From positions 248,001-312,000 of the forward strand of contig CALLMF010000002.1 in NCBI GenBank assembly GCA_938006335.1: DNA of 64,000 bases, given 5' to 3'. The notes beneath the pieces were generated by a model that made no database searches, was not told the DNA's origin, and was given only the letters and a program-made list of their open reading frames with translations. How positions within the stretch are numbered: position 1 is the stretch's first letter; the number at the start of each line of letters is the position of its first letter. Below, piece by piece: positions 28,024-56,641 of this stretch. A program made the position numbers and the translations under genes. Origin of the DNA: an uncultured Granulosicoccaceae bacterium. GTDB lineage: Bacteria; Pseudomonadota; Gammaproteobacteria; Granulosicoccales; Granulosicoccaceae.

Positions 28024-28838
28024 TGCACACTGCAGGTAATCGTCACCGGATCGCGGAGAGCTTCGCGAAAGACCCCGAGCGCACGTTGCTCGTGCCGTAC
28101 ATCACCGCCGGTGATCCGGACCTCGATACCTCGCTTGCCTTGATGCACACGATGGTCGAAGCGGGTGCCGACATCATCGAGCTCGGTGTTCCGTTTTCCG
28201 ATCCGATGGCGGACGGACCGGTGATCCAGTTGGCGTGTGAGCGCGCGCTTGCTGTCGGCACTCGGCTGGTCGACGTCATTGACCTGGTGGCTCGCTTTCG
28301 CGAAAGCAATCACGACACGCCGGTGGTGTTGATGGGCTACATGAATCCGTTGGAGCGCTTGGGCTACGCCGAGTTTGCTGACCGCGCGGCGCAGGCAGGA
28401 GTAGACGGCGTATTGACGGTGGATCTGCCGCCCGAAGAGGGCCGTGAGCTGGGCGCTGAACTCGAGCGTACCGGTCTCGATGCGATCTACCTGTTGTCCC
28501 CAACAACGCCGGATGCCCGGCTGCAAGCCGTGGCAGAGCGTGCCTCCGGCTATCTGTACTACGTGTCGCTCAAGGGCGTAACCGGGGCTGCCAAACTCGA
28601 TACCTGCGAGGTGGCAACGCGGGTCAAGCACATCAAGACGCTCGCCAAGCTGCCGGTCGCCGTCGGTTTCGGTATCCGTGACGCCGAGTCGGCCGCCACG
28701 GTATCCGCCACCGCAGACGCGGTGGTCGTGGGCAGCGTGCTGGTTTCGCTGGTCGGAGAACACGGCGCAGACCGCGAGGCGGCCAAGGCTGCCGTCGGCG
28801 AGGTGATTCGCAGCATGCGCGAGGCGATGGACGCCTGA
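28023..28838 (+). CDS. trpA: Tryptophan synthase alpha subunit
   Basis: Cleaves indole-3-glycerol phosphate to indole, channelled to TrpB. The 271-residue TIM barrel has the catalytic Glu in IIELGVPFSDPMADGPVIQ, the catalytic Asp in GVLTVDLPPEE, and the phosphate-binding GFGIRD and VVGSVLV. The stop codon is the first base triplet of a 13-bp tandem repeat (28836-28874). Confidence 0.97.
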   Translation: MHTAGNRHRIAESFAKDPERTLLVPYITAGDPDLDTSLALMHTMVEAGADIIELGVPFSDPMADGPVIQLACERALAVGTRLVDVIDLVARFRESNHDTPVVLMGYMNPLERLGYAEFADRAAQAGVDGVLTVDLPPEEGRELGAELERTGLDAIYLLSPTTPDARLQAVAERASGYLYYVSLKGVTGAAKLDTCEVATRVKHIKTLAKLPVAVGFGIRDAESAATVSATADAVVVGSVLVSLVGEHGADREAAKAAVGEVIRSMREAMDA

Positions 28839-28874
28839 CACCAGACCGTGACACCAGACCGTGACACCAGACCC
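28836..28874 (+). repeat. 13-bp tandem repeat, three copies
   Basis: Unit TGACACCAGACCG repeated at 28836, 28849 and 28862 (the third ends in C). It starts at the trpA stop codon and extends into the trpA-accD gap. Confidence 0.85.
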
Positions 28875-28924
28875 TGACGCCGGGCGCACGCCAGGGCATA
28901 CCGTCGCGCGATGACGTCGCGGGG

Positions 28925-29994: not shown

Positions 29995-31335
29995 TTGCAA
30001 CCTGTCAGCAGTACAGGGAGACCCACAGTAGAGGACGTGCTCGAGCGCATCGCCGCCGCGCACCCTCACGCGATGGACCCGGGCCTCGAACGCTTGCGCG
30101 CCGTTGCCCAGCGTCTCGGAATGCTCGACGTGGACGTGCCACTTGCCATCGTGGCGGGCACCAATGGCAAGGGCTCTACCGTCGCTTGCCTGGAGGCCAT
30201 CTGGCGCGCCGCCGGGCGTCGCACCGGCGCTTTCCTGTCGCCACACCTCATTCGTTTCAATGAGCGTATACGCATCAACGGAGAGGACGCGGACGATGCG
30301 ACGATCATCAACGCGCTCGAGCACATCGAGTTGCAGATCGCGCCCGACTCGCTGACCTATTTCGAGGCAGCAACGCTCGCCGCCATGGTGTGCTTCAGGC
30401 AGGCGGGTTGCGATGCCATCGTGCTGGAAGTCGGCCTCGGCGGTCGTCTTGACGCGAGCAATCTCTGGGATGCCGATGGCGCCATTCTCACCAGTGTGGC
30501 ACTCGATCACGCGGACTGGCTGGGTACCGACCTCGGTGTCATCGCGACCGAGAAGGCCGCGGTTGCACGCCGCGGCGGCGCGCTGGTGGTCGGCGAACGG
30601 CATCCACCCGACACCCTGGAACCCTGGGCGAGAGAGGCGGGGGTGCGTCTGCTTTCCATAGACCCGGTACTCGCTCGCCTCGACTCGCCCAGTCATCTCG
30701 CGGGCGAGCATCACCGCAGAAACGCCGCGTGTGCAGTGACGCTTGCGCATGAGCTTCATGACAAGGTTCCGGTCAGCGAGTCAGCGATAGCCGCTGGCCT
30801 TGCCACCGCACGCATTGCCGGGCGCATGCAATTGCTGCGTGTCGGTGCCATCGATGTCGTGGTGGACGTCGCCCACAATCCGGCGGCTGCCGAGGCCCTG
30901 GCGCTGGCTCTCGGTCAGTCTCAGGCTGAGGTCGGCCCTGAAGAAGGCTTCCATCTCGTGTTCGCGGCACTCGCCGACAAGGACATTGCAGGAATTGCCC
31001 GGGCCTTGCTGCCCATCGCGCGTTCCGTCGCCTGCGCGGACCTGGAAGGGGACCGCGCCTTGTCCTCCGATGCACTTCTGGCGCTCATCAAGGCCGAAGT
31101 CGATGCCGTTACCGACGGCCCCCCGGTCATCCTCGACGCGCACGCGTCGGTCGAGGCGGCCTGGCAGGTGGCTGCGGCACGAGCACAGCACGATCAGTGT
31201 CGAGTGCTGGTTATCGGGTCTCACGTCACGGTGGGTGCGTGGTTGGCCCAGCGTCAGGCCGAGCGTCAGGCCCAGCGTCAGGCCCAGCGTCAGGCCCAGC
31301 GTCAGGCCAAGTCCGCTTCGTCGAAGGCAGGATGA
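29995..31335 (+). CDS. folC: Bifunctional folylpolyglutamate/dihydrofolate synthase
   Basis: Adds glutamate to dihydropteroate and to folates. Mur-ligase fold: ATP loop VAGTNGKGSTVACLE near residue 53, FLSPHLIRFNERIRING, EVGLGGRLDASN and VVDVAHNPAAAEAL. The start is TTG 29995, seven bases after accD; a later GTG would cut conserved N-terminal helix residues. The protein (446 residues) ends in a low-complexity QRQA tail encoded by five 12-bp repeats (31249-31308), longer than usual for the family and probably not functional. Confidence 0.94.
   Translation: MQPVSSTGRPTVEDVLERIAAAHPHAMDPGLERLRAVAQRLGMLDVDVPLAIVAGTNGKGSTVACLEAIWRAAGRRTGAFLSPHLIRFNERIRINGEDADDATIINALEHIELQIAPDSLTYFEAATLAAMVCFRQAGCDAIVLEVGLGGRLDASNLWDADGAILTSVALDHADWLGTDLGVIATEKAAVARRGGALVVGERHPPDTLEPWAREAGVRLLSIDPVLARLDSPSHLAGEHHRRNAACAVTLAHELHDKVPVSESAIAAGLATARIAGRMQLLRVGAIDVVVDVAHNPAAAEALALALGQSQAEVGPEEGFHLVFAALADKDIAGIARALLPIARSVACADLEGDRALSSDALLALIKAEVDAVTDGPPVILDAHASVEAAWQVAAARAQHDQCRVLVIGSHVTVGAWLAQRQAERQAQRQAQRQAQRQAKSASSKAG
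31249..31308 (+). repeat. 12-bp tandem repeat in folC 3' end, five copies
   Basis: Unit CAGCGTCAGGCC repeated without gaps; the second copy begins with G instead of C. Encodes QRQA/ERQA units. Being a multiple of three, gain or loss of copies would keep the frame. Confidence 0.9.
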
Positions 31336-41596: not shown

Positions 41597-42514
41597 ATGA
41601 GCGCAGAACCCCAACCGCTTGCGGTCGTAGAAGGCAGCCCGGTCACCGAGCTCCCCCTCGATCTGTACATTCCGCCGGATGCGCTGGAGGTCTTTCTCGA
41701 CACCTTTGAAGGCCCGCTGGACCTGCTGCTGTACCTGATCAAGAAGCAGAATCTCGACATCCTGGATATTCCGATCGCGGAGATCACCGCGCAGTACATG
41801 TCCTACATCGAGCTGATGGAGGAAGTGCGCCTCGAGCTTGCCGCGGAATATCTCGTGATGGCGGCCATGCTCGCAGAAATCAAATCCCGTCTGCTTCTGC
41901 CGCGTGCAGAGGACGGAGACGACGACGAAGAAGACCCGCGCGCAGAGCTCGTGCGGCGCCTGCAGGAATACGAGCGAATCAAGGAAGCAGCGGAGAACGT
42001 AGACGCGCTGCCACGAATGGAGCGTGAGAACCACCAGCTCAAGGCAGTCGCGCCTGAGGCAGGAAAAGAGCAGGTATTGCCGGACATCACGATGAAGGAG
42101 CTACTGATGGCCCTTCGGGACGTATCCGAGAGAGCGCGTGTCAACGGCCATCACGCGATTGCTCGCGAAACGCTCTCTGTGCGCGCGCGCATGTCCCATG
42201 TGCTATCGACGCTGCAGATCGGCGACTTCTGCGAGTTCACGACGCTATTCAATCCCGAAGAGGGCAGGCTGGGCGTCGTGGTGACCTTCCTTGCGATTCT
42301 CGAGCTTTGCAAGGAGTCGATGATTGACATCGTACAGAACGAACCTTTCGCACCGATCTACTTGAAGCCGCGTACCGCGTCGGTCGAAGGTGGCGAGGAC
42401 GGCGATATCGATAGCGCTGAAGTCGTTGAAGCCGACGGGCATGCGGACGGGCATGCGGAAGGGGCAGATGAAGCTTCCGAGCACGACCCGCAGAACGGCA
42501 GTGCGGAGGATTGA
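41597..42514 (+). CDS. scpA: Segregation and condensation protein A
   Basis: Kleisin subunit that bridges SMC heads. The 305-residue product has the kleisin N-terminal core FEGPLDLLLYLIKKQNLDILDIPIAEITAQYM, the helix VRLELAAEYLVMAAMLAEIKSRLLLP, and a C-terminal winged helix (GRLGVVVTFLAILELCKESMIDI). A 45-residue acidic tail (DIDSAEVVEADGHADGHAE) is added, a feature shared with ScpB here. GGAGTGAGTG precedes ATG 41597. No smc gene is in the window. Confidence 0.95.
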   Translation: MSAEPQPLAVVEGSPVTELPLDLYIPPDALEVFLDTFEGPLDLLLYLIKKQNLDILDIPIAEITAQYMSYIELMEEVRLELAAEYLVMAAMLAEIKSRLLLPRAEDGDDDEEDPRAELVRRLQEYERIKEAAENVDALPRMERENHQLKAVAPEAGKEQVLPDITMKELLMALRDVSERARVNGHHAIARETLSVRARMSHVLSTLQIGDFCEFTTLFNPEEGRLGVVVTFLAILELCKESMIDIVQNEPFAPIYLKPRTASVEGGEDGDIDSAEVVEADGHADGHAEGADEASEHDPQNGSAED

Positions 42515-42521
42515 CGCAAGT

Positions 42522-43727
42522 ATGGAAATGAACGAATCCACTACGCCAGAGCCTGATGCGGACCATGCAAAGCACGTGATCGAAGCGTGCTTGCTGGTCG
42601 CTGGACGCGCGCTGTCATTGCGTGAACTCGAAGCGCTGTTTCAGGACGACACACCTCAGCCCGGCAAGGAGCACCTGCGTGCCGCACTGACATCACTGCA
42701 GGAAGACTACGAAGGACGCGGTATCGAGCTGGTTGAAGTCGCCAGCGGCTGGCGCCTGCAATCCAGAGTAAGCATGGAACCCTGGGTGTCACGCCTGTTC
42801 AAGGAAAAGTCGCCTCGTTACTCACGAGCCCTGCTCGAAACACTGGTGCTTGTCGCCTACCGGCAACCGATCACCCGCGGCGAGATCGAAGACGTGCGCG
42901 GCGTGGCCGTCAGTTCCAACATCATCAAGACGCTGCAAGAACGCGAATGGGTACGCGAAGTTGGCCACAAGGACGTACCCGGCAAGCCGGCCCTGTTGGG
43001 CACCACCCGCCAGTTCCTCGACTACTTCAATCTCAAGCGCCTTGAGGATCTTCCAAGCCTCGGTGACCTCAAGGATCTGGATCAGATCGACGACGCACTC
43101 GGCAAGGAACTGGCAGCCGAACTCGGCGTGGTTGACTCGACTGCGGCAAATGACGAATCAGGAGAACGAGGAAGCGGCGACGAAGCGGACGTCACACGCG
43201 CAGACGACGCGCCGGACGGTGATGCAGGTGACGGCTCGTCGAGTGACGCTGACAGTTCCGACGAGGCACATGATGGTGAGCAGGCGTCTGACGATGCCGG
43301 CGAGGGCGTGACGGACGTTGACTCGGTTGACTTGCTGTTACCCGAATCAGTCCCCGTCGACTTGACGCAATTCCTCGAACCCGACGGCGTGCAGAGCGAA
43401 GACGTGCAGAGCGAAGACGTGCAGAGCGAAGACGTGCAGAGCGAAGACGTGCAGAGCGAAGACGTGCAGAGCGAAGACGTGCAGACCGAAGATCCTCAGG
43501 CACGTCTGCGTCGTGTTGTTGATGAGTTTGCTGGCGAGCATCGCCAAGAACTTGAAGCAGAGCGGCAGGTGCTACCTGCACGCAAATCTGCGGATGCCGA
43601 CGAAGCCGTTCCAACCGATGTCGCCCCAGCTGTGACTTCCAACACTGAATTGGAAGCGGAGTTGGAAACAGCCGATACCAGTCCAGCAGAGCGGTCTAGA
43701 CCAGACCGCAATGACACGGTCCCCTGA
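42522..43727 (+). CDS. scpB: Segregation and condensation protein B with long acidic tail
   Basis: ScpB dimers bind the kleisin ScpA in the SMC-ScpAB condensin. ATG 42522 gives 401 residues, about twice the usual 190-200. The conserved double winged helix covers residues 12-205: VIEACLLVAGRALSLRELEALF, ALLETLVLVAYRQPITRGEIEDVRGVAVS and KPALLGTTRQFLDYFNL. After that comes an acidic low-complexity tail with six VQSED units plus one VQTED (43389-43493). The stop is UGA followed by C, and the same frame stays open for another 1.25 kb (see 43806-44978). Confidence 0.95.
   Translation: MEMNESTTPEPDADHAKHVIEACLLVAGRALSLRELEALFQDDTPQPGKEHLRAALTSLQEDYEGRGIELVEVASGWRLQSRVSMEPWVSRLFKEKSPRYSRALLETLVLVAYRQPITRGEIEDVRGVAVSSNIIKTLQEREWVREVGHKDVPGKPALLGTTRQFLDYFNLKRLEDLPSLGDLKDLDQIDDALGKELAAELGVVDSTAANDESGERGSGDEADVTRADDAPDGDAGDGSSSDADSSDEAHDGEQASDDAGEGVTDVDSVDLLLPESVPVDLTQFLEPDGVQSEDVQSEDVQSEDVQSEDVQSEDVQSEDVQTEDPQARLRRVVDEFAGEHRQELEAERQVLPARKSADADEAVPTDVAPAVTSNTELEAELETADTSPAERSRPDRNDTVP
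43389..43493 (+). repeat. 15-bp tandem repeat in scpB tail, seven copies
   Basis: Unit GTGCAGAGCGAAGAC, six identical copies plus one with two changes, encoding VQSED. The high identity at third codon positions points to recent expansion by slippage. Confidence 0.95.
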
Positions 43728-43805
43728 CTGGCAAGACGGGTAGGGGCAACGCGATGGATCGCGGATAACCAGCAGGAAAGTCGTTCGCTAGTCGTAGCCG
43801 GGCCG

Positions 43806-44978
43806 TTGGTGCTCGGACGTACGCCTGCGGAATCCGACGTGACTGATGCTGACGCCGCACCCGTGCGTTCAGAAGCGCTGCAAAGTGATACTGAACAAGA
43901 AACGACTCGGACACTGTCTGGTGAGACAGAGAATGCGGCTGACAAGCTGTTTGGTCTCGGTGCAATCTCGAGTTCAGCGTTTGTTCCCGATGCAAGAATG
44001 TGGGAACGCCTCGATAGGTCTGGTGAATTCGATACGTCGAATGATCCCAATACCTCCGAGCTTGAGCGCTCGGATGTGGAGCTTGCACGCGATAGCGAAT
44101 TCGATGACGTCGATGAGCTTGAGACGCTGGTAGAGATTGTCGACGTTCAGGCAGCACCGGTGCCTGAGGCTCGTATCCGAGATGAGGACGAAGCGTTCGA
44201 CGACGATTCGGTATTGCCGGAATCAGTGTCGTTGCTCGACGCAGATTCAATGGAGGTCGAGCACATCGATCTGGCTGACGAGTCAATCGTTGAGGCCAGC
44301 GAGCTAGAAGAAGCTACCAGGCTCGAAGCAGAGCGGCTCGAAGCAGAGCGCGTTGAAGCAGAGCGCGTTGAAGCAGAGCGCGTTGAAGCAGAGCGCGTTG
44401 AAGCAGAGCGGGTTGAAGCAGAGCGGGTTGAAGCAGAGCGGCTCGAAGCAGAGCGGCTCGAAGCAGAGCGGCTCGAAGCAGAGCGGCTCGAAGCAGAGCG
44501 GCTCGAAGCAGAGCGCGCCCAAGTGGCTAGCGACGACGTCTTCGATTCAGTACAACAGACCATTCAGGAAGCAGGTCCTGACATCGATCTTGGCGCAGAG
44601 ACTTCAGCGGGATCGATCGAACACACCGGCGACACTCTTGACAGTACCGATGTGCACGACCTGTCGATTTCGCCAGGAGGCCGTCCGGTCCCCGGTGAGG
44701 CCTTCGATCTGGAATTTGATTCGTCCCGAGAGATCATGTCTACCGATACTCTCGTCAACACTACGCTCACCGCGGCGATAAGCGCAGATCTTTCTGTAGC
44801 CGATGGTCGAGAGTCCACGGGTGACGATTTCGTGACCGACCTTGCCGTTCGAGAGACAGATGCCTGGCCCGTTCAGTCTTTGTCGCAGCCTGCCGGATTG
44901 TTCAGGCGGGTGTTTTCCCGCCTGATGAGATTGGTCAAATCGCTACCGCGACGGATATTCAATCGGCGCAGAAAATAG
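43806..44978 (+). CDS. Acidic repeat-rich reading frame in phase with scpB
   Basis: Not a recognised family. It is in the same frame as scpB: after the scpB UGA (43725-43727) there are 26 open codons, then TTG 43806 and GTG 43809, the first usable starts, with no ribosome site. From 43806 the frame has 390 residues: acidic, Asp/Glu/Ser-rich, 13 [10 protein letters not shown] units (44322-44516, predicted long charged helix), and a strongly basic Arg-rich end ([24 protein letters not shown] in two parts). Possibilities: a tail made only by UGA readthrough (total about 818 residues), an independently started protein, or the 3' part of a longer ancestral scpB cut by a nonsense mutation. The intact frame over 1.2 kb argues against long decay. 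Confidence 0.5.
44322..44516 (+). repeat. 15-bp tandem repeat, thirteen copies
   Basis: Units CTCGAAGCAGAGCGG and GTTGAAGCAGAGCGC in tandem: two Leu-type, six Val-type, five Leu-type, encoding LEAER or VEAER. Blocks of identical variants show stepwise duplication. Confidence 0.95.
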
Positions 44979-44998
44979 GACGTAAGCATAATTACAGC

Positions 44999-45026
44999 TT
45001 GTACCGATCCACTGTATATATTATCT
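44999..45026 (+). promoter_or_regulatory. Candidate sigma-70 promoter for the HNH gene
   Basis: TTGTAC at 44999-45004, 16-base spacer, TTATCT at 45021-45026 in an AT-rich patch (TATATATTAT), about 78 bases before ATG 45104. The gap 44979-45103 has no other recognisable feature. Confidence 0.4.
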
Positions 45027-45103
45027 GTTCTGTAAGCCTGAGCAAGTGACATTCCGAGCGACCTCCAGTACGCTATTCAAGCGGCTTGCAAGGAGGTGCT
45101 CCG

Positions 45104-55805: not shown

Positions 55806-56641
55806 AGTTCTGCAGTGAGGCGTGCTTCCAGGCGTGCTACACCGATCTCGATACCACAGCTCTCGCAGTAGCCGTATTCCTCGTCATCGATGCGACGCTG
55901 CGCTTCGTTGATCTTCTTGATCAACTTGCGTTCGCGATCTCGTGTGCGTAGCTCGAGGCTGAACTCTTCTTCTTGCGTGGCGCGATCGTTGGGATCCGGA
56001 AAGTTGGTGGCGTCGTCCTTCATGTGATCGACGGTACGGTCAACTTCCTCCATCAGCTGTTGCTTCCACTCGGCAAGCAGCTTGCTGAAGTGCTCCAGCT
56101 GGGACTTGTCCATGTAGTGGCCGGAACGCTGTGAATCGCTTGGCGACACCTTGCTGTCGTTAGCTGCGTTGGACGGTGAATCTGTCATTGCCTCTTTGGA
56201 ACTCGTGGCTTTGGTAGTACGGCGCTTCGAGTTCGCCGCAACGGAAGTGCCTTCCGCAGAGGACTTTGTAGTCGCCTTCGGCGCTGTTGTCTCTTCCGCT
56301 GTCGACCTGGTCTTTGCCGCGGCAGTGGTTTTCTTCCTGGCTGTTGCCGCCGGCTTTGCTGTCGCCTTCTTCTTGGCCGTTGCCGTCGTCTTTGCTGTGG
56401 CCTTCTTCTTTGCGGTGGCCTTTGCTGCGGGTTTGGCGGCGGTCTTCGATGTCTTCTTCGCAGTCTTCTTTGCCGCGGACGCAGCGGCTTTGGCCGAATC
56501 GGCGACCGGGTTGTCAGCAGACGCCTGCTTGGCCGCTACCTTCTTCGTGGCGGTCTTCTTAGCTGTGGCCTTTTTGGCTGTGGCCGTTTTGGAAGCCACC
56601 TTCTTGGCCGTCGCTTTCTTTTTCGTGGTCTTCGTTGCCAT
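55754..56641 (-). CDS. dksA: DksA with histone H1-like N-terminal tail
   Basis: RNA-polymerase secondary-channel regulator acting with ppGpp. The C-terminal 120 residues are a normal DksA: helix SQLEHFSKLLAEWKQQLMEEV, coiled-coil tip DPNDRATQEEE near residue 215 with both Asp and the Ala, and a C4 zinc finger (CESCG...CIDCK). The first 170 residues are a Lys/Ala/Thr-rich tail of KKATAKK-type repeats, as in histone H1 or AlgP-like proteins, expected to be disordered and to bind nucleic acid; then an acidic-Ser linker. 295 residues against 151 in E. coli. Such tails are seen in some Xanthomonas-like DksA. GGGAGGAG precedes ATG 56641. Upstream of gluQ as in Pseudomonas. Confidence 0.93.
   Translation of the reverse strand: MATKTTKKKATAKKVASKTATAKKATAKKTATKKVAAKQASADNPVADSAKAAASAAKKTAKKTSKTAAKPAAKATAKKKATAKTTATAKKKATAKPAATARKKTTAAAKTRSTAEETTAPKATTKSSAEGTSVAANSKRRTTKATSSKEAMTDSPSNAANDSKVSPSDSQRSGHYMDKSQLEHFSKLLAEWKQQLMEEVDRTVDHMKDDATNFPDPNDRATQEEEFSLELRTRDRERKLIKKINEAQRRIDDEEYGYCESCGIEIGVARLEARLTAELCIDCKTLEEIRERQIA

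Follow-up and report, generated by a model that had tools for sequence, protein, structure and literature searches.

A candidate programmed UGA readthrough site in the condensin gene scpB, conserved across a genus of Granulosicoccaceae

The scpB locus and its features

The window analysed here is a stretch of 64,000 nucleotides from an uncultured Granulosicoccaceae bacterium, and belongs to a 3.8-Mb genome (G000) that is 93.75% complete. Its condensin genes scpA and scpB adjoin each other on the plus strand, and the scpB frame continues, past an in-frame UGA, into a long open stretch. The features of this region are as follows.

41597..42514, + strand: scpA, condensin kleisin gene adjoining scpB (Pfam PF02616, E 4.8e-32)
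42522..43727, + strand: scpB, proposed short isoform of 401 aa, ending at UGA 43725-43727 (Pfam PF04079, E 2.9e-52, residues 19-180; PDB 3w6j ScpB, E 1.4e-29)
43388..43492, + strand: 15-bp repeat, 7 copies (VQSED), in the acidic tail of ScpB (TRF, 98% match)
43725..43727, + strand: in-frame UGA, proposed readthrough site, +4 base C (UGA in 18/18 readable same-genus genomes; +4 base C or A in 19/19 sequences)
43725..43769, + strand: conserved 45-nt putative recoding element, comprising the UGA, a MUAGCWAGR context and a hairpin (56.9 bits under covariance model R1, the window sequence being one of the training sequences)
43750..43763, + strand: hairpin of the element, 43750-43754 pairing with 43759-43763 around loop 43755-43758 (covariation; thermodynamically weak)
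43728..44978, + strand: proposed readthrough extension, 416 sense codons then TAG (open frame, in phase in 18/18 readable genomes, purifying selection between related genomes)
43728..43769, + strand: conserved N-terminal segment of the extension, 14 codons, [LI]AR.. consensus (sequence comparison)
44320..44515, + strand: 15-bp repeat, 13 copies, in the extension linker (TRF, 96% match)
44892..44975, + strand: C-terminal cationic amphipathic stretch, 28 codons (tail profile, hydrophobic moment, low-confidence AF2 helix)

The scpB gene starts at ATG 42522, and its product is identified as ScpB both by the PF04079 profile match and by the adjoining scpA. The UGA is followed by C, by 26 sense codons (43728-43805) and then, from a TTG at 43806, by 390 codons that run to TAG at 44976-44978; with the UGA decoded, the product would have 401 + 1 + 416 = 818 residues. 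This layout had been described in an earlier note on the DNA, and is borne out by the sequence and its translation. The 15-bp repeat expansions that the note placed on both sides of the UGA are real, and the end of the frame is strongly basic as claimed, with a net charge of +11 in the last 32 residues. The note also stated that no ATG follows the stop, which holds close to the UGA, the first in-frame ATG being codon 91 of the extension, but codon 27 is TTG and codon 28 GTG. Three extensions were searched against Pfam and matched no family, and a search of 43400-45100 against Rfam gave nothing near a gathering score.

Some neighbouring features can be recorded here. A 12-bp repeat lies at 42434-42463 in the acidic C-terminal tail of ScpA, so that ScpA and ScpB, both condensin partners, have acidic repeat-bearing tails. 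Directly downstream of the extension is a gene with an HNH endonuclease domain (PF01844; 45104-46786). Elsewhere in the window there are short tandem repeats of 13 and 12 bp (28836-28878 and 31245-31308, respectively), as well as overlapping 36- and 18-bp repeats at 56331-56422, perhaps in a Lys/Ala-rich tail on the minus strand.

Conservation across the genus

We surveyed 27 genomes of the genus, among them Granulosicoccaceae MAGs (loci L076-L084); a core-protein tree divides the genus into several well-supported deep clades. Eighteen genomes are readable beyond the scpB stop. In 16 of these the contig also carries the scpB core, while in G011 and G015 the core is on another contig and the acidic tail alone precedes the stop. 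One genome, G022, has a second copy on another contig (90% amino acid identity over 153 codons of the extension), which gives 19 sequences from 18 genomes. The other nine genomes are uninformative on the stop: in six (G004, G005, G014, G016, G039 and G041) the contig breaks off within the scpB tail while the frame is still open, and in three (G001, G003 and G013) the scpB core was not found.

The stop is UGA, never UAA or UAG, in all 18 readable genomes, and the frame beyond it is open and in phase with scpB in every one, which is what the earlier note had suggested looking for in relatives. The +4 base is C in 8 and A in 11 of the 19 sequences. Eleven extensions are complete, with 229, 255, 302, 393, 416, 430, 465, 659, 728, 743 and 760 codons; in the remaining readable genomes the frame is open up to the contig end, and for G008 and G018 the missing second half begins another contig, with the same repeat continuing. 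The rows for G020 and G039 in this comparison, picked in a wrong frame, were disregarded. Assemblies of the genus break repeatedly within the scpB tail or the extension (G004, G005, G008, G011, G014, G015, G016, G018, G039 and G041), so public records probably often carry a shortened gene.

An open stretch after scpB is not rare by itself, and as an observation on a single genome it is weak: among 71 scpB loci from outside the genus (the stop of one, L131, having been misplaced by the script), in 10 the scpB frame stays open for 250 codons or more past the stop, presumably the next gene in phase. It is the genus-wide conservation that gives the observation its significance.

The conserved element downstream of the UGA

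The 45 nucleotides from the UGA onward are the most conserved part of the region. Their consensus is UGA-(C/A)UA-GC(A/U)-AG(A/G)-NNG, followed by a short hairpin that starts after 22 nt; the window departs from this at codon 1, with CUG rather than CUA, and is the sole exception in the 19 sequences. Codon 3 after the UGA is AGA or AGG in 19/19, though AGR accounts for only 15% of the 356 scpB arginine codons, and codons 4 and 8 invariably end in G while the encoded amino acids differ. As a control we used the ScpB core, in which third-base identity stays below 90% at all 51 amino-acid-invariant columns of degenerate residues. The comparison indicates that constraint after the UGA acts on the nucleotides, beyond what the protein needs.

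In 15 aligned sequences, 96% of the cells of the hairpin are paired, and this drops to 16-39% when the structure is slid along the alignment. There are seven double-changed cells (2.0 in shuffles), and the covariation score is above that of 500/500 shuffles. Two of five pair measures are not above shuffles, with the double-change pairs matched by 123/500 and the further pair types by 464/500 that are as high. Pair 29-36 shows at least two changes on the core tree; in the held-out genome G040 this pair is broken, but by eye a pair is gained at the base of the stem. Lowest-energy folds of the 45-mers contain the whole hairpin in 11 of 19 sequences, part of it in two and none of it in six, and the stability of the 76-mer from the window is not unusual (z -0.85). 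Taken alone, the hairpin is only moderately supported. In the window RNA the hairpin is closed by a long-range stem, which was rejected as part of the element because most relatives have no such counterpart.

With the covariance model, strong matches (33-68 bits) occur solely at scpB ends, in 18 of the 27 genus genomes, among the best 150 or 131 first-look candidates scored per genome, a scope within which weak copies elsewhere could be missed. Three of the matched genomes, G011, G015 and G040, had been held out of model building. The next match after the scpB ends scores 20.9 bits, and the maximum in 21 sister-genus genomes is 20.3 bits; a weak match in G041 (L180) proved unrelated on inspection. 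A short degenerate pattern was discarded as a description of the element, since it gave 56 matches in 27 genomes vs 52 for its reversed control and missed the window's own site. The evidence points to a conserved cis element 3' of the stop, with a putative role in stimulating readthrough.

The extension and its tail

The extensions share a general layout, in which [LI]AR.. and a short conserved segment are followed by a fast-evolving, mostly acidic, repeat-rich linker and then by a cationic stretch. Conservation is confined to the first ~12 residues after the UGA and to the C-terminal stretch, and is poor in between. The “long charged helix with an Arg-rich tip” of the earlier note is therefore too specific: the linker evolves fast and is rich in repeats, the extensions range over 229-760 codons, and LEAER-like or EARQAE-like repeats are found in some species only, but the cationic amphipathic C-terminus is indeed conserved.

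The note had proposed a dN/dS analysis, and repeat-masked comparisons of related genomes give values of 0.30-0.60 for the extension where calculable. Seven of eight pairs show Sd above Nd at p<0.05 (p over all eight = 0.04, 1e-3, 8e-3, 0.084, 2e-28, 2e-15, 7e-7 and 4e-6), the non-significant pair being G018/G023 (p 0.084). The eight pairs share genomes, and were drawn from 11 unmasked pairs with G009/G022, G008/G021 and G000/G017 left out; the last of these is the window's own pair, for which dS is saturated (unmasked). The values indicate that the extension evolves as coding sequence and that purifying selection acts on it among related genomes.

In 11/11 complete extensions the C-terminus is a cationic stretch whose helical hydrophobic moment is high, and the last 32 residues have net charges of +4 to +12. 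Its amphipathicity is equalled by 0-72 of 1000 shuffles, and by under 50 in 9 of the 11 cases. With a tail profile, matches at E 2.6e-5 or better occur in 18 of the 27 genomes of the genus, including seven held out of the profile, and nothing below E 0.04 occurs in the 21 sister-genus genomes. In the AlphaFold (AF2) model of the final 60 residues, a helix spans residues 33-59, with low confidence (mean pLDDT 60). The amphipathic character suggests that the tail may serve as a tether to membrane or nucleic acid, with membrane a slightly more probable partner than DNA or RNA.

Origin of the extension

For the sister genera of the same family we examined 21 genomes, of which 20 have an scpB match and 18 are readable to the stop. 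In 18/18 readable genomes the ScpB C-terminus is (L/I)H, followed by TAG (13), TGA (4) or TAA (1), and 0-65 in-frame codons lie beyond the stop, with no extension. Nine genomes of the genus keep ...TLH immediately before the UGA. These two observations together mark the UGA as the ancestral end of ScpB, and the extension appears to be derived, gained rather than split off. The earlier note had offered, as one of its two readings, an ancestral long tail divided by a nonsense change, and this is contradicted by the sister genera, which end at the same (L/I)H with no extension.

Proposed mechanism and alternative explanations

We propose that scpB carries a programmed UGA readthrough site and yields two ScpB isoforms, and give this reading a probability of roughly 0.8, based on comparative sequence evidence. 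Most ribosomes would stop at UGA 43725 and release ordinary ScpB, while a fraction would decode the UGA by a near-cognate tRNA, probably tRNA-Trp. The context UGA-(C/A)UAGC would weaken termination by RF2, aided by the short hairpin starting 22 nt downstream. Readthrough would add the C-terminal extension, with its ~12-residue segment, repeat-rich linker and cationic amphipathic stretch, and some condensin complexes would then bear a long tether whose tip may bind membrane or nucleic acid. What the sequences show is the conserved UGA, element, frame and tail and the selection on the extension; that readthrough takes place, how often, by which tRNA, with what help from the hairpin and with what tether function is inferred. 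The ~818-residue readthrough product was the other reading of the earlier note, and gains support from the UGA, 3' context and frame kept in 18/18 readable genomes and from the coding selection on the extension. According to PMC5289835, UGA-C terminates poorly in bacteria and UGA-A is readily misread by tRNA-Trp; in premature-stop reporters in E. coli, UGA is the stop most read through, usually by Trp (PMC11126739). Our commitment to programmed readthrough rests on this leakiness of UGA-C and UGA-A, the E. coli data on UGA, the UGA-CUA(G) motif and the weakening of the rival explanations.

The reading frames narrow the ways of reaching the extension. A frameshift was rejected, because the extension is in the same frame as scpB; in 14 of 15 sequences the +1 frame meets a stop at its first codon, and in ten the +2 frame does so at codon 2, so that only in-phase decoding, hopping or reinitiation would lead into the extension. 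Reinitiation just past a stop is common in bacterial operons, and the downstream frame could on this precedent be a gene of its own, reached by reinitiation past the UGA or by an internal start. AUA, a very weak initiator codon, directly follows the UGA in 11 of 19 sequences, and GTG and TTG codons are present further into the extension. However, no ATG, GTG or TTG position is conserved in 15 sequences, the first in-frame ATG falling at codon 22-411 or being absent (2/15) and the first GTG or TTG at codons 17-60. The strongest conservation starts directly after the UGA, upstream of any such start, and reinitiation needs no phase with scpB, yet the extension is in phase in 18/18 genomes. An AAGGA loop in some of the sequences resembles a Shine-Dalgarno sequence, but it is not the loop of every sequence and has no standard start after it. 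We regard a separate gene as unlikely. Still less probable is that ribosomes pass the stop by in-frame hopping (bypassing) rather than by decoding it. This process has been demonstrated with synthetic constructs in E. coli, according to PMC5009743, and in scpB a hairpin comes after the stop; by eye, however, the aligned sequences have no conserved matching take-off and landing codons, and the codons after the UGA are partly conserved as peptide, which suits decoding. The split of an ancestral tail, with its downstream part now decaying, would account for the acidic composition and the 15-bp repeats on both sides of the UGA, but it is most improbable given the (L/I)H ends and lack of an extension in the sister genera, the TLH kept in nine genus genomes, the frame open in 18/18 and the excess of Sd over Nd.

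The UGA could in principle encode selenocysteine, with the hairpin as a bacterial SECIS; like scpB, bacterial selenoproteins combine an in-frame UGA with a downstream hairpin. The loose bacterial SECIS rule fits a hairpin with a G in the loop ~27 nt after the UGA, as in the element, and G010 has selA and tRNA-Sec, and G002 tRNA-Sec. The selenocysteine genes are nevertheless rare in the genus: selA passes in 1/27 genomes, tRNA-Sec is found at E<=1e-9 in 2/24 (G039-G041 being outside that set), with one more borderline match in G014 (47.9 vs a gathering score of 47 bits; a comparable match in G031 is tRNA-Ser), and selB is over the cut-off in 0/23 genomes, 15 of them in the genus, a set that includes G000 and leaves G023 outside. 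The single-contig genome G023 and the window genome are both without selA and tRNA-Sec, yet keep the UGA. Selenocysteine is ruled out in G023, which refutes it as a general mechanism, and its use in the window genome is very improbable; overall the chance of it is slight. In G010 (L072, L075) tRNA-Sec and selA are on one contig, and in G002 (L071) tRNA-Sec occurs without selA; either selenocysteine is used by a few members of the genus, or these contigs are strays in the metagenome bins. Reassignment of UGA, or a UGA-suppressor tRNA, is also unlikely: a UCA anticodon occurs in 0/35 tRNA matches of G023 and 0/30 of G000, in lists that are incomplete (tRNA-Ile is missing from both, and the best 150 of 210 G023 candidates were scored), and tRNA-Trp looks ordinary by eye, with a CCA anticodon and a 5-bp anticodon stem rather than the 4-bp stem sought as a mark of UGA decoding. 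Programmed readthrough is thus our preferred reading.

Comparison with known systems

Viruses and animals provide documented cases in which the readthrough of an ordinary stop is conserved. In the fungal and animal metabolic enzymes that are read through at UGA CUA the extension is a peroxisomal signal, whereas in scpB it is a long linker with a cationic amphipathic stretch on a condensin subunit. Both have the same short UGA CUA(G) weak context, and in both the extension can relocate part of the protein, as in the dual localisation of the enzymes and potentially also for ScpB; downstream mRNA sequences are said to be needed for higher levels of readthrough of the enzymes (PMC4207609). The eukaryotic UGA-CUAG readthrough genes OPRL1, OPRK1, AQP4 and MAPK10 (PMC4132726) resemble scpB in having a conserved UGA followed by CUA(G), nucleotide-level constraint past the stop and a conserved coding extension, and in OPRL1 the following bases GC are conserved too, as in the scpB element. 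The scpB case differs in involving a bacterial ribosome and RF2, in a +4 base that may also be A and in an extension of hundreds of codons, and it is a prediction from sequence. With respect to bacterial SMC-ScpAB condensin, the short product is an ordinary ScpB (PF04079) encoded next to scpA; the scpB case departs from the usual one in the long acidic tail and in the additional, extended isoform proposed here.

In the parts of the open-licence literature that were searched, we met no report of ScpB stop codon readthrough, of readthrough in Granulosicoccus, of programmed readthrough of bacterial genes or of an extended second ScpB isoform. Stop readthrough is a known kind of event; what would be new is the conserved, element-associated readthrough of a bacterial chromosomal housekeeping gene.

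Implications

The scpB element would offer a natural case from bacteria, tied to a single gene, to set beside the eukaryotic UGA-CUAG motif, and with it the weakening of termination by 3' nucleotides could be studied on the simpler bacterial ribosome. Extensions of this sort would be overlooked by gene callers that halt at the first UGA, and further cases may therefore lie hidden. For the cell, the finding suggests a condensin in two forms, one of them with a long tether. Tentatively, and at somewhat under even odds, we suggest that a cis-acting bacterial element, convergent with the animal UGA-CUAG, sets the ratio of the ScpB isoforms, that the long form tethers condensin to the membrane or nucleoid via its low-complexity linker and amphipathic helix, and that the ratio may follow the growth state via RF2 or tRNA-Trp.
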